From contig NZ_JACJUK010000001.1 in assembly GCF_014235875.1 (NCBI RefSeq), forward strand, positions 310,001-374,000: a DNA stretch of 64,000 bases, written 5' to 3'. A program made the translations under genes and the position numbers. Source of the DNA: Croceivirga lutea. GTDB taxonomy: Bacteria; Bacteroidota; Bacteroidia; Flavobacteriales; Flavobacteriaceae. The notes beneath the pieces were generated by a model that worked only from the letters and a program-made list of their open reading frames with translations, had not been told where the DNA came from and searched no databases. Positions 35,053-39,143 of this stretch are shown one piece after another (the stretch's first letter is position 1; each line of letters starts with the position of its first letter).

Positions 35053-35826
35053 TTACACAGCTTCTTTCTTTTCAGACAAATACTTCCAATAGCGTTTTGG
35101 TACGTGTTGCGTATGTAATTTTCGGTTTATTCTAGATTTAATATTGGTGCTTTTAAAATAGTTGTTCCATAATTCTTGATATGCATACTCACCACTAGTA
35201 AATACATTAGACTGTTGTGTTCTGTTATAATGAAGTTCTTTTATGTCTAAAGAGACAATTTCGACACCATCAAGATTATAAAATATACCATAATTGCGTT
35301 TAGCATCATATATCAACCATTGTTGGTCAGCATATCTATTTTTAAAATGTTTAGATATCAAGGGTAAAACATCAAAATCAGGTTCAATATTTGCAAAATA
35401 TATCTGGTCTTTAGTTAATTGAAAACGAACAAAAGCTTCCACTCTATGTTTTTCTCTACCTACTTTTTTTGCTAATTGATGGATATAGAGAATTGTTTCG
35501 TCAGAAAAATCTACCTGCGTACCCCTTTTGGCCATTAGTTTTTTAATGTAGGTGTAAAGCATCATTTCAACACCCTCATTTTCACTTAAATAAGCAAAAT
35601 AAATAGTTGATATAGCATTAAAACTTTTATTCCGAATACCAGTCCAAACCCGTTTGGCTTGTTCAATATTGGTAAAGACTGTAGTGGATTCAGAAAATAA
35701 TTCATTTTGTACTTGTTTATTCTTTTGAATAGCTACAAGTTTCAATTTTTCATCAAAAGCTTGAAATACACAAGTAAGAAAGCCGTTAAAACTTCCATCA
35801 TAAATTAGTGTTGTTTGGTTCATCAT
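35053..35826 (-). CDS. DUF4130 / TIGR03915-type putative DNA metabolism protein
   Basis: A 257-residue protein with the family's opening TLIYDGSFNGFLTCVFQAFDEK. Other landmarks are the central GREKHRVEAFVRFQLTKDQIYFANIEPDFDVLPLISKHFKNRYADQQWLIYDAKRNYG block and the C-terminal RKLHTQHVPKRYWKYLSEK. In other bacteria this domain occurs fused to a uracil-DNA-glycosylase-like (UdgX) region and is paired with the radical-SAM protein encoded just upstream here. No UDG domain is present in this copy. The biochemical activity is unknown; a role in DNA repair is inferred from the pairing. Its ATG overlaps the stop of the small ORF at 35823-35987 (ATGA). Confidence 0.85.
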   Translation of the reverse strand: MMNQTTLIYDGSFNGFLTCVFQAFDEKLKLVAIQKNKQVQNELFSESTTVFTNIEQAKRVWTGIRNKSFNAISTIYFAYLSENEGVEMMLYTYIKKLMAKRGTQVDFSDETILYIHQLAKKVGREKHRVEAFVRFQLTKDQIYFANIEPDFDVLPLISKHFKNRYADQQWLIYDAKRNYGIFYNLDGVEIVSLDIKELHYNRTQQSNVFTSGEYAYQELWNNYFKSTNIKSRINRKLHTQHVPKRYWKYLSEKKEAV

Positions 35827-35987
35827 AATTGAATTTTTTGATTAAATGATTCTAAGTTACCTACAGATTTAGGTCTAGATTGCAAACTTTTTTTGAGGTT
35901 ACTTTTAAAAGCTATAAGGGTATAGCCAAGGGCTAAAAAAGTCTTTCGTTTTTCTTCAATAAAATTGGTTTTGTTCATCGTTTTCAT
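35823..35987 (-). CDS. 54-residue ORF inside the radical-SAM/DUF4130 operon
   Basis: An open frame of 54 codons fills the gap between the two operon genes. It starts at ATG 35985-35987, five bases after the radical-SAM stop (35992), and its TGA overlaps the ATG of the DUF4130-type gene. It opens MKTMNKTNFIEEKRKTFLAL and ends NLESFNQKIQL. It is basic, with a central segment AFKSNLKKSLQSRPK and no signal peptide. The exact fit between neighbours and the ATGA coupling argue for real translation. No family is recognised. It could be a small partner protein or only a translational coupler. Confidence 0.5.
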   Translation of the reverse strand: MKTMNKTNFIEEKRKTFLALGYTLIAFKSNLKKSLQSRPKSVGNLESFNQKIQL

Positions 35988-35991
35988 TGGG

Positions 35992-37254
35992 CTAATTGAA
36001 TAATGATAATTGATTACTAATTTGATTTCTAAACTTACTGGCCGAATTTTGTAAGATTAAGCCTTTGATTTTACTAGGTTCACGGTCTTTTCTTTCCCAT
36101 TCTCTAGAATCACAAACCATGAAATATTTAGCTCTATTTAAGGCTACTCCAATTTTTTTAAGATGTTCCCAGTTTAATTTTCTAAATTTTCTAGCATGAA
36201 TTATTTTGTGAACAGATTTCATACCTAAACCAGGTATTCTAGCAAGTAACCTCTTATCAGCATTATTAATATCAACAGGAAACAAATGCATATTTCGTAA
36301 TGCCCAAGACAACTTTGGGTCAATATCCATATCTAGATTAGGGTAATCATCGTTTAAAATTTCATTTACGGCAAAACCATAAAAACGCAACAACCAATCT
36401 GTTTGATAAAGTCTATTTTCTCTTAACATAGGTACTTGAGAGCCAATAGCCGGTAAACGATTGTCTTCTAAAACAGGTACATAACCTGAATAATACACCC
36501 TTTTCATACTATATTTTTTATAGTAATAGGTGGCAGAATACATTACGTCTTTATCTGATTCACCTGTGGCGCCAACAATCATTTGAGTACTTTGCCCAGC
36601 TGGGGCATATTTTGGCGTGTTTTTAATGATTTTACGTTCATTGTTGTATCTAATTATTTCATTTTTGACCTTATTCATAGGTTGAATAAAATCTTTATGG
36701 TCTTTTTCAGGAGCTAAAAGTTTGAGGCCAGATACGGTGGGAATTTCTATGTTAATCGATAAACGGTCAGCATACAATCCGGCCTCATACATTAGCTCAT
36801 CACTACAACCGGGTATAGATTTTAAATGAATATATCCGTTAAAATTTTCCTCTTCGCGCAATTTTTTGGCCACCCGTATTAAGCGTTCCATGGTATGGTC
36901 GGGGTCTTTAAAAATACCAGAGCTAAGAAAGAGGCCTTCGATATAATTTCTTCGGTAAAAATTGATGGTTAAGTCAACCACTTCTTGCACTTTAAAGGCT
37001 GCTCTTTTAATATCATTAGTTCTGCGAGAAACACAATAGGCACAATCAAAAATACAGTGATTAGTTAAAAGAATTTTAAGGAGAGAAACACATCTACCAT
37101 CTTCTGTATAGCTATGACATATACCCATGCCAGTGCTGTTGCCTAAACCTTTATTCGTATTGGTTCTAGAACTTCCACTACTGGCACAAGAAACATCGTA
37201 TTTAGCGGCATCTGCTAAGATGTTTAATTTCTCTTTAATTCGTTCAAAATTCAC
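35992..37254 (-). CDS. Radical SAM protein, putative DNA modification/repair (TIGR03916 type)
   Basis: A 420-residue radical SAM enzyme. The [4Fe-4S] motif is C67-X3-C71-X2-C74 (CIFDCAYC). Conserved N-terminal cysteines C23, C46 and C55 (SCASSGSSR, GICHSYTEDGRC) may hold another metal site. A helix-hairpin-helix near the C-terminus (about 340-372, LLARIPGLGMKSVHKIIHARK) is a DNA-binding element. The family is known for pairing with the DUF4130-type protein, here two genes downstream. The substrate is unknown; DNA repair or modification is the standing hypothesis. It is transcribed away from the S24 repressor gene across a region full of palindromic operators, which suggests damage-inducible control. 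Confidence 0.9.
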   Translation of the reverse strand: MNFERIKEKLNILADAAKYDVSCASSGSSRTNTNKGLGNSTGMGICHSYTEDGRCVSLLKILLTNHCIFDCAYCVSRRTNDIKRAAFKVQEVVDLTINFYRRNYIEGLFLSSGIFKDPDHTMERLIRVAKKLREEENFNGYIHLKSIPGCSDELMYEAGLYADRLSINIEIPTVSGLKLLAPEKDHKDFIQPMNKVKNEIIRYNNERKIIKNTPKYAPAGQSTQMIVGATGESDKDVMYSATYYYKKYSMKRVYYSGYVPVLEDNRLPAIGSQVPMLRENRLYQTDWLLRFYGFAVNEILNDDYPNLDMDIDPKLSWALRNMHLFPVDINNADKRLLARIPGLGMKSVHKIIHARKFRKLNWEHLKKIGVALNRAKYFMVCDSREWERKDREPSKIKGLILQNSASKFRNQISNQLSLFN

Positions 37255-37278
37255 GTTACTTGGTTTTAATCCAAAAAT

Positions 37279-37293
37279 ATGGATTAATTCCTA
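37279..37293. promoter_or_regulatory. Operator-like site 1 (weak)
   Basis: GGA-TTAAT-TCC, the same half-sites and spacing as sites 2 and 3 but with diverged flanks. It overlaps a second palindrome (AATCCA, six bases, TGGATT; 37268-37285). Closest of the three sites to the radical-SAM start codon at 37254. Confidence 0.45.
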
Positions 37294-37296
37294 ATA

Positions 37297-37311
37297 TTGG
37301 AAATATTCCAA
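37297..37311. promoter_or_regulatory. Operator-like site 2 (perfect palindrome)
   Basis: TTGGAA-ATA-TTCCAA, a perfect inverted repeat with a 3-bp spacer, centred 18 bp from site 1. Lies in the shared promoter region of the radical-SAM operon and the S24 repressor gene, so it is the best candidate binding site for that repressor. Confidence 0.65.
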
Positions 37312-37319
37312 ATATATTT

Positions 37320-37334
37320 TTGGATATATTCCAA
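37320..37334. promoter_or_regulatory. Operator-like site 3
   Basis: TTGGAT-ATA-TTCCAA, one base off a perfect repeat of site 2, with centres 23 bp apart. A further single half-site TTGGAA lies at 37356-37361. Repetition of the same 15-bp design within 60 bp is unlikely by chance. Confidence 0.65.
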
Positions 37335-37474
37335 ATAAGGTATATTTGAGTAGTATTGGAACTAATAGACTTGTAAGATTCTTAAAAGGTTATGGTGGTT
37401 CAAATTACGTTAGCTCGCAAATAACTTGTTTAAGATAAGCGGGTTAAGAAGAATGACAATAAGAAAAGAGACCT

Positions 37475-38230
37475 ATGGAAAATGAATTAACGCTTAAAAG
37501 ATTTGTTGAAATTCGTAGAGATTTGGAATTAACGCAGGCTGATTTTGCTGAAAAAATAGGAGTATCTTCTACCACAGCAGATATAGAAAGAGGACGGACT
37601 AAACTCTCTGGTAAGGTGGTTGCAGAGCTTCTAAGACAGTTTAAAATAAATCCGTTGTGGTTGTTTGGAGAAAGCGAAGAAAAATATTTAGATACCAATA
37701 AAACAAGTGTAATACCAAAGGTAGTAACAGTTGATAGTCAAGATAATGACAATATGGTTTTAGTTAATGCAAAGGCGGCGGCAGGTTATCCACAAAATAT
37801 AGCAGATACAAGTTGGTACCAACAGTTACCAGCTTTTGATTTACCAATTCCTGAATTTAGAAATGCAACTTACAGAGGTTTTCAGGTAGAAGGCGATAGT
37901 ATGCTTCCTAATCTATATCCTGGAGACTGGGTAATGGCAAGGGCAATTGAACATATAGATTATGTGAGTCCAAACAAAATGTATGTAGTGGTGCTACAAG
38001 ATTCAGTGATGGTAAAAAAAATTGAAAAAAGACCTAATTCAAACAATATCACTTTAATATCTACAAACGAAAGTTATCCTGCTTACGACATTAAACCATT
38101 TCAAATTCAAGAAATTTGGGAGGTTAGTAGTAAGCTAACTTTTGATTTAAACCCAACAAGTAACCATGGATTATTAAAGCAGTTACAAGAGTCTATGGAA
38201 GAGCTTAAAAAGCAATTACAAAAACCATAA
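37475..38230 (+). CDS. XRE-family repressor with S24 (LexA-like) autoproteolysis domain
   Basis: A 251-residue regulator. The N-terminal helix-turn-helix (about 6-60) includes LELTQADFAEKIGVSSTTADIERG. The C-terminal S24 peptidase domain has all parts for self-cleavage: the Ala103-Gly104 bond in AKAAAGYPQ, nucleophile S142 in VEGDSMLPNLYPGD, and general base K181 in DSVMVKKIEK. It therefore resembles phage CI or HdiR-type repressors, which are cut when RecA is activated by DNA damage. A short coiled coil ends the protein (LLKQLQESMEELKKQLQK). It is divergent from the radical-SAM/DUF4130 operon with shared palindromic operators, so it probably represses both that operon and itself. No phage genes are near. 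Confidence 0.88.
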   Translation: MENELTLKRFVEIRRDLELTQADFAEKIGVSSTTADIERGRTKLSGKVVAELLRQFKINPLWLFGESEEKYLDTNKTSVIPKVVTVDSQDNDNMVLVNAKAAAGYPQNIADTSWYQQLPAFDLPIPEFRNATYRGFQVEGDSMLPNLYPGDWVMARAIEHIDYVSPNKMYVVVLQDSVMVKKIEKRPNSNNITLISTNESYPAYDIKPFQIQEIWEVSSKLTFDLNPTSNHGLLKQLQESMEELKKQLQKP

Positions 38231-38231
38231 A

Positions 38232-39143
38232 TTACGAGCTCCTTTTGGTTTGTTCGTCATATGTACTTTCAAAAATACGGTCAGCATTGCCTGCTTCAAA
38301 ACCATCACGTCTTTTTTCTCGGTCTAAACCTTGAGTATTTTCTTTTTCATAGGCTTTTAGCGGTAAACGTTCAGCAAATTCAACATAACTACCTGATATT
38401 TTTTTGGTCTTACCATTTGCAAAATTCGCGGTAATCATTTTTGCAACAGAACTACTTTGTTTTAGTAAACCGTCTTTACTGGTTTTTATCTTACCACCAG
38501 ATGTATTTAGAACGATACCAATGTTTTCTAAAAACCTATTAAATTCTTCTAACTTATTGTACGGGCTTGGCAAATTATGTACGCTAATGGTATAATGATT
38601 AAGATAATACCGGTTGTAAATTACCCATGAAGCATATTCACTTTCAGCAGCCAACAAATCATAATCCTCTATGGTCGGAATCTCCCAAAGCGGTTGATAA
38701 AAGAAATTACCAACTTGCTCTGTATTATTTAAATCAAGGGAATCAGCAGGGTCTTTAGTAATTGTTTTGGTATATTTTGTTATGATATTTTGAGCTTGTT
38801 GCGATAAATCATTAACGCGCAATTCACTTATAAAAATTCTCGGGTACAACTCCTTAGGTGGCGCATACCAATAGGCATCTAGTTTTTTTGCTTCAAAATA
38901 AAAATGGTCTCGTTTTTGGTAGCCGTGGTGTAAAAAAATCTTTTCAATTGATTTGAGTCCAAGATTAGGAACACCAAGTGTTCTAAAAGCTATATGGTCA
39001 TTTTCAATATCTTCAGGTTTAGCAATCATACCAGCTTTAACCATCTCAGCATTTATAAAATCTACATCTTCAACGTTTTTCCTGTATGGCTCAAACAACG
39101 CTTTTAAAATGTTTTCTATGGGAATGTTGGTATTGAAATGCAT
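38232..39143 (-). CDS. DUF1338 protein, HglS-like 2-oxoadipate dioxygenase/decarboxylase
   Basis: A 303-residue non-haem iron enzyme of the HglS family. Characterised members turn 2-oxoadipate into D-2-hydroxyglutarate. The expected metal ligands can be picked out as H50 (NDHIAFRTLG), H183 (YLNHYTISVH) and E255 (GSYVEFAER), with the substrate-binding Arg R54. Length and order fit the family. No other lysine-catabolism genes adjoin it, but a candidate D-2-hydroxyacid dehydrogenase is encoded at 50790-53699. It is convergent with the S24 repressor gene, ending one base away. It has its own TTTG-N23-TACTTTTG promoter. Confidence 0.88.
   Translation of the reverse strand: MHFNTNIPIENILKALFEPYRKNVEDVDFINAEMVKAGMIAKPEDIENDHIAFRTLGVPNLGLKSIEKIFLHHGYQKRDHFYFEAKKLDAYWYAPPKELYPRIFISELRVNDLSQQAQNIITKYTKTITKDPADSLDLNNTEQVGNFFYQPLWEIPTIEDYDLLAAESEYASWVIYNRYYLNHYTISVHNLPSPYNKLEEFNRFLENIGIVLNTSGGKIKTSKDGLLKQSSSVAKMITANFANGKTKKISGSYVEFAERLPLKAYEKENTQGLDREKRRDGFEAGNADRIFESTYDEQTKRSS

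Follow-up and report, generated by a model that had tools for sequence, protein, structure and literature searches.

Does a self-cleaving repressor that adjoins a putative repair operon serve that operon alone, or is it the general SOS switch of its host? The question is raised by a locus of Croceivirga lutea, at positions 35053 to 38230 of the 64,000-nucleotide stretch of contig NZ_JACJUK010000001.1 analysed here (the window), in which an XRE-S24 repressor gene diverges from genes for a radical S-adenosylmethionine (SAM) protein, a 54-residue open reading frame (ORF) and a DUF4130 protein. We consider it highly probable that the repressor is the published general flavobacterial SOS switch lying beside one of its operons, and not a private switch. 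To judge from the sequence, the window very probably holds the GGA-N5-TCC non-canonical LexA system of PMC8565304, because motif, architecture and predicted regulon match that description. The sequence anatomy of the locus, its conservation and the common motif are established here. The locus is a new example of an SOS system already known, to which it adds a conserved small operon gene and sites that overlap both predicted promoters.

The repressor, its neighbours and the sites between them

The four ORFs of the locus were verified, and its features are the following.

35053–35826, minus strand: DUF4130 protein of family TIGR03915, 257 aa (NCBIfam and Pfam matches; structure model with pLDDT 87)
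35823–35987, minus strand: small protein, 54 aa, of a clade-specific family (relatives in congeners; ratio of non-synonymous to synonymous substitution rates, dN/dS)
35992–37254, minus strand: radical SAM protein TIGR03916 (GTG start; C67xxxC71xxC74, invariant C23, C46 and C55, C-terminal helix-hairpin-helix, HhH)
37260–37274: degenerate fourth palindrome TTGGTTTTAATCCAA (TTGGT-N5-TCCAA; one mismatch, weaker)
37272–37279, minus strand: TATTTTTG, the -7 box predicted for the radical SAM operon (TAnnTTTG directly after O1)
37279–37293: putative operator O1, GGA-N5-TCC (core 37281–37291, centre 37286; adjoins the predicted radical SAM -7 box)
37297–37311: putative operator O2, TTGGA-N5-TCCAA (core 37299–37309, centre 37304; conserved in relatives)
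37320–37334: putative operator O3, TTGGA-N5-TCCAA (core 37322–37332, centre 37327; within the predicted repressor promoter)
37320–37348, plus strand: predicted repressor promoter TTG-N18-TATATTTG, Bacteroidota type (pattern in 17 of 20 loci)
37475–38230, plus strand: XRE-S24 repressor of the non-canonical LexA type, 251 aa (HTH_3 and Peptidase_S24; A103-G104, S142, K181)

The original prediction had described an XRE-S24 repressor with intact Ala103-Gly104, S142 and K181 that faces a radical SAM / 54-residue ORF / DUF4130 operon. Both parts were borne out, the first by the residues found at these positions and the second by the ORFs and their NCBIfam and Pfam matches. The radical SAM protein matched TIGR03916 over its whole length (671.6 bits, cut-off 343.5), the 257-aa protein matched TIGR03915 (261.8 bits, cut-off 112.25) and PF13566 (175.8 bits, cut-off 27), and HHH_3 was over its Pfam cut-off in the window. 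In the repressor, PF01381 (HTH_3) scored 31.1 bits (cut-off 23) and PF00717 (Peptidase_S24) 48.2 bits (cut-off 23.3); its Pfam results consisted of these two and HTH_19, below cut-off, with the LexA-type winged helix absent from them. A103, G104, S142 and K181 were likewise present in the 30 aligned loci L031–L060. The repressor would resemble canonical LexA, which joins a winged helix to an S24 domain, in self-cleavage and SOS derepression, and it differs in its DNA-binding domain, which is HTH_3, and in its motif.

The repressor was searched for in 60 genomes, its own included, 42 of which gave a match; the loci of 29 relatives, not all of the matches, were read. Two to four GGA-N5-TCC sites lay within 300 bp upstream of the repressor gene in all 19 loci whose repressor was at least 42% identical to that of the window, and none lay within this distance in the ten loci with a repressor of 33% identity or less. 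Together the 29 loci contained 64 sites, against 0.85 expected from mononucleotide shuffling. Dinucleotide shuffling of 20 loci, with the window's own included and the ten site-less loci left out, set 67 sites against 0.77. The palindromes beside the repressor are not chance occurrences. Furthermore, the repressor and the full radical SAM/DUF4130 pair were adjacent in 14 of 19 fetched relatives, and the arrangement was kept throughout the ten congeners and also in loci of named Flagellimonas, Maribacter and Zobellia genomes.

In the 220-bp intergenic region of the window, the predicted palindromes centred at 37286, 37304 and 37327 are indeed present, with the outer TT/AA complete in two of the three, and within the genus the centre-to-centre spacing is mostly 18 and 22–23 bp. 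The longer form TTGGA-N5-TCCAA was not enriched genome-wide (8 matches versus 7 in a reversed control), which counts against the observation and makes its strict form useless as a genome-wide marker; with two mismatches it stayed near background both in the window (48 versus 43 after shuffling) and in the genome (2559 versus 2487).

Upstream of the repressor gene, 17 of 20 loci have the pattern TTG-N18-22-TAnnTTTG, the Bacteroidota promoter type, where dinucleotide shuffling gives 0.52 (loci L031–L050 with the window's own included, the ten site-less loci L051–L060 excluded). The TTG of the predicted repressor promoter coincides with the first half of the last operator. On the minus strand, TAnnTTTG stands directly after O1 in the window and in all ten congeners, a count that has no shuffle control for the box. 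With O3 inside the repressor promoter and O1 beside the radical SAM -7 box, the operators overlap both predicted promoters.

On the other side of the repressor gene, a convergent gene with a match to HGLS (PF07063), 2-oxoadipate dioxygenase/decarboxylase-like, occupies 38232–39143 on the minus strand and ends one base past it.

A dedicated or a general repressor

In PMC8565304, the Bacteroidetes XRE-S24 repressors termed 'non-canonical LexA' comprise a GGA-N5-TCC group, primarily of Flavobacteriaceae, and a CTAA-N5-TTAG group. Two tested proteins bind their own motifs, mutagenesis of the motif is published, and mitomycin C induces the repressor genes and predicted targets, except recA of S. 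agarivorans. Among the targets predicted for the GGA group are dinB, COG1533 and a COG1573-COG4277 operon, and the GGA-type repressor, studied as S. agarivorans WP_075324850.1, is presented as the general SOS regulator of Flavobacteriaceae. The repressor of the window resembles this group in its HTH_3 and S24 domains, its Ala-Gly and Ser-Lys residues and the GGA-N5-TCC sites at its own promoter, and also in that such sites precede dinB, a second radical SAM gene and the radical SAM/DUF4130 operon. We found no essential difference, the reference protein being unaligned; recA is without sites in the lineage of the window.

In its own genome the repressor was the sole match at E 0.001, with no second copy, although a search to this value could overlook an S24 repressor that has diverged strongly. 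GGA-N5-TCC palindromes with A/T flanks numbered 17 in this genome, against 9 in the reversed control. Six of them stand before genes: three at the locus, one at dinB, which has a second, slightly weaker site 19 bp from the strict one, and two at a PA0069-family radical SAM gene. Sites within 260 bp before dinB were found in this genome and in 10 of 16 relatives (all ten congeners, none of the six others; 0.38 expected), and sites within the same distance before the PA0069-family gene in this genome and in 11 of 13 relatives (all ten congeners and G011; 0.31 expected). In the relatives these sites were mostly paired, with single ones in L251, L270 and L273. The neighbour that the repressor faces also varies among other genera. 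It is dinB in one locus (L128) and an SRAP gene, a small gene and dinB in another (L127), DUF4130 with the radical SAM gene absent from the 8 kb read in two further genera (L122, L123), and a sodium/proton exchanger in one genus (L124).

Several observations weigh against this assignment. Among the core SOS genes, the motif stands at dinB and the PA0069-family gene across the genus, but recA lacks it both in the genome of the window and in all 19 relatives, as do the 260 bp before dinB of G011 (L262), despite a three-site repressor of 79% identity there. Eleven of the 17 strict genomic sites lie inside reading frames, and this, together with the control count of nine, means that most isolated matches are background. 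In a scan of named genomes with the radical SAM alignment, neither the GGA nor the CTAA motif preceded the radical SAM gene in 51 of the best 80 of 590 confirmed stretches. The match of regulons also presupposes that TIGR03916 corresponds to COG4277, DUF4130 to COG1573 and PA0069 to COG1533. Finally, the type was assigned by motif and architecture. As to recA, that of S. agarivorans was likewise not induced by mitomycin C in the same paper.

Two other accounts of the repressor have to be weighed against these data. The original prediction regarded it as dedicated to the radical SAM/DUF4130 operon and independent of a general LexA. Its position beside the full pair in 14 of the 19 relatives, and divergent within 700 bp in 11 of the best 80 named loci, would fit such a role. 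However, the same sites recur at dinB and the PA0069-family gene, no second copy was found at E up to 0.001 (where a very divergent S24 protein could escape), the neighbour is exchanged for dinB, SRAP/dinB or a lone DUF4130 gene in other genera, and PMC8565304 assigns a general SOS role to the family. We regard a dedicated repressor, set apart from a general SOS repressor, as very unlikely, and this part of the claim is not supported. A remnant prophage or mobile-element repressor that came to lie beside a repair operon by accident seems extremely improbable. Its HTH domain is of the phage-repressor type, and an ancient phage origin is proposed in PMC8565304, but the neighbours are constant in all ten congeners and in the named Flagellimonas, Maribacter and Zobellia loci, the operators are common to chromosomal SOS genes, and inspection by eye of the ORFs between 28000 and 46000, eight of them also searched against Pfam, revealed no phage gene.

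The general SOS repressor is the reading that we retain, and with it the damage induction of the original prediction. An S24 repressor with intact self-cleavage residues that acts through conserved palindromes makes induction by DNA damage probable, and the family data of PMC8565304 agree with the sequence in this respect. Thus the operon is probably damage-induced through the S24 repressor.

The radical SAM/DUF4130 pair and the small gene between

TIGR03916 and TIGR03915 form a putative DNA repair pair. The window proteins are far over the curated cut-offs of both and are same-strand neighbours; they differ from the pair in having a clade-only 54-aa gene between them and a DUF4130 protein without a UDG (uracil-DNA glycosylase) domain. 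That the pair is biochemically uncharacterised, as had been supposed, agrees with a literature search of titles and abstract openings, with subscription papers and preprints outside it, which surfaced no biochemical study. DUF4130 appears as a predicted mutagenesis-related enzyme in PMC3765255. The radical SAM family is patchy: of 296 genomes sampled from the phylum, 95 had a match over the cut-off, as did 2 of 14 control genomes. A DUF4130 gene lies downstream of the radical SAM gene in 76 of the best 80 loci.

GGA sites preceded the radical SAM gene in 11 of these 80 loci (2.5 expected). Ten had three or four sites, all with a divergent repressor, and the eleventh (L201), with a single site, is probably due to chance. 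A repressor was divergent within 700 bp in 11 loci; in L140 alone were the 300 bp next to the radical SAM gene free of GGA sites. The second SOS motif published for Bacteroidetes, CTAA-N5-TTAG, preceded the gene in 18 loci (0.92 expected). The presence of the pair beside the SOS motif of its host, GGA or CTAA, in many of the examined loci strengthens the case for a DNA-damage enzyme. Other palindromes were seen upstream of the radical SAM gene outside the phylum's two motifs. CGACAAC-N-GTTGTCG occurs within about 130 bp in Psychrobacter L180 and L183, with one arm slightly altered in L195, and is possibly the operator of another damage repressor; Acinetobacter L176 and L178 have CGTCA-N5-TGACG in common.

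The 54-aa ORF is a real, fast-evolving and clade-specific gene under purifying selection. Relatives stand at the same place in eight of ten congeners, with one match per genome, and in the two without it the large genes are almost adjacent. Two Flagellimonas loci have related ORFs at this position, as do, with weaker resemblance, Maribacter and a Cellulophaga metagenome-assembled genome; outside the genus, two matches at E 0.003 and 0.005, both weak and with internal stops, were not counted as members. Of 36 pairs, 15 gave a dN/dS of 0.07–0.43, many of them near saturation, and 21 were synonymous-saturated and gave no ratio (L112 was excluded; L131 was aligned and omitted from the pairs). The two closest pairs had ratios of 0.16 and 0.17. 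A spurious ORF was rejected on conservation and dN/dS, and a repeat family on the single match per genome. No Pfam or NCBIfam family reached its cut-off for the protein or two of its relatives.

The gap between the two large genes varies in content and length, and in a single genus it measures anything between about 26 and 742 bp. Four congeners (L111, L113, L114, L118) have an 87-aa ORF there besides the small gene. A small gene also occupies the gap in a second lineage, Hymenobacter (L182, L187, L188, L193) and Pontibacter (L179); it is a different ORF, with a KVARLSCxCRLSELMPLVRQ-like cysteine stretch, and follows the radical SAM gene. In L182, L188 and L193 a gene that by eye is alpha/beta-hydrolase-like comes next, and then DUF4130. 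In Chryseobacterium sp. Leaf394 (L170) the gap holds an apparent HigB/HigA toxin-antitoxin pair, and in L173 an apparent ParD-like antitoxin, both judged from the sequence.

In the radical SAM protein, C67, C71 and C74 (CxxxCxxC) and also C23, C46 and C55 were invariant among 65 sequences (64 of the 80 loci and the window), and the latter three suggest a second metal site. The model had a pLDDT of 74, with much of the cysteine-rich start below 50, and matched generic radical SAM folds; being moderate and generic in its matches, it is silent on the substrate. A search of solved structures by sequence returned only HhH-containing proteins. The PA0069-family, or SplB-type, proteins are radical SAM proteins under the same motif; the window protein differs as a TIGR03916 member with an HhH end, and the PA0069 member is encoded at another place in the genome (L079).

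For DUF4130, no credible relative came from the sequence search of solved structures, in which S100 proteins scored best at E 0.055, and M-HEAT_ATR in Pfam stayed under its cut-off (25.5 bits, cut-off 27). The top Foldseek matches of its model in PDB and BFVD were mostly DHH phosphoesterases (RecJ, NrnA, Cdc45), at TM-scores of about 0.3–0.43. In hhalign, DUF4130 reached a probability of about 0.1 against profiles of the NrnA type and of RecJ, whereas these two reached 99.9 when compared with one another as a positive control. This is a weak negative because the profiles were shallow, built from 14 loci each of close relatives, with one NrnA row a 19-residue fragment. A DHH motif was not among the conserved positions of the DUF4130 alignment (68 of 76 loci and the window; L158 and L184 dropped for an internal stop in the extended reading, and L141, L144, L164, L167, L168 and L173 to shorten the list). 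We do not file DUF4130 as a DHH phosphoesterase, a lead from two Foldseek libraries that the profile comparison did not support.

The chemistry of the pair has been linked by name to base excision. The operon is called COG1573-COG4277 in PMC8565304 and the NCBIfam name of the radical SAM family is rSAM_link_UDG, both of which speak for a uracil-DNA-glycosylase-type base excision system. The 257-aa DUF4130 protein, however, matches no UDG family in NCBIfam or Pfam, and the 50 PDB matches that Foldseek showed for its model include no UDG. We consider this reading unlikely. A bolder proposal, to which we attach little likelihood, is a three-part SOS-induced repair complex of a kind so far undescribed. 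In it, the radical SAM enzyme, equipped with a further metal site (C23, C46, C55) and an HhH grip, would act on a damaged base by radical chemistry instead of glycosylase-type excision, DUF4130, as a decayed Cdc45-like DHH/RecJ protein, would bind DNA and not cut it, and the small protein would tune the complex.

Proposed regulation and its meaning

We infer the promoters, binding, cleavage, induction and repair role that make up the following model; its regulatory part is strong, resting on the sequence together with the published family. Repressor dimers would occupy three operators that overlap two back-to-back promoters, O3 taking up the interval from the -33 to the -7 box of the repressor promoter and O1 abutting the -7 box of the radical SAM operon. 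Operators over both promoters would let the repressor silence itself and the operon, and elsewhere in the genome it would also silence dinB and the PA0069-family radical SAM gene. Once RecA is activated by DNA damage, the repressor would cut itself at Ala103-Gly104 by means of Ser142 and Lys181, and all these promoters would open together. Three products would then be made from the operon: the radical SAM enzyme, whose HhH end would bind DNA, the lineage-specific small protein and the DUF4130 protein. Most probably they cooperate on damaged DNA. The operator layout would explain both autoregulation and co-induction. The locus also corrects a tempting reading, that of a dedicated repressor, since the global SOS switch can itself be the repressor that adjoins such an operon.

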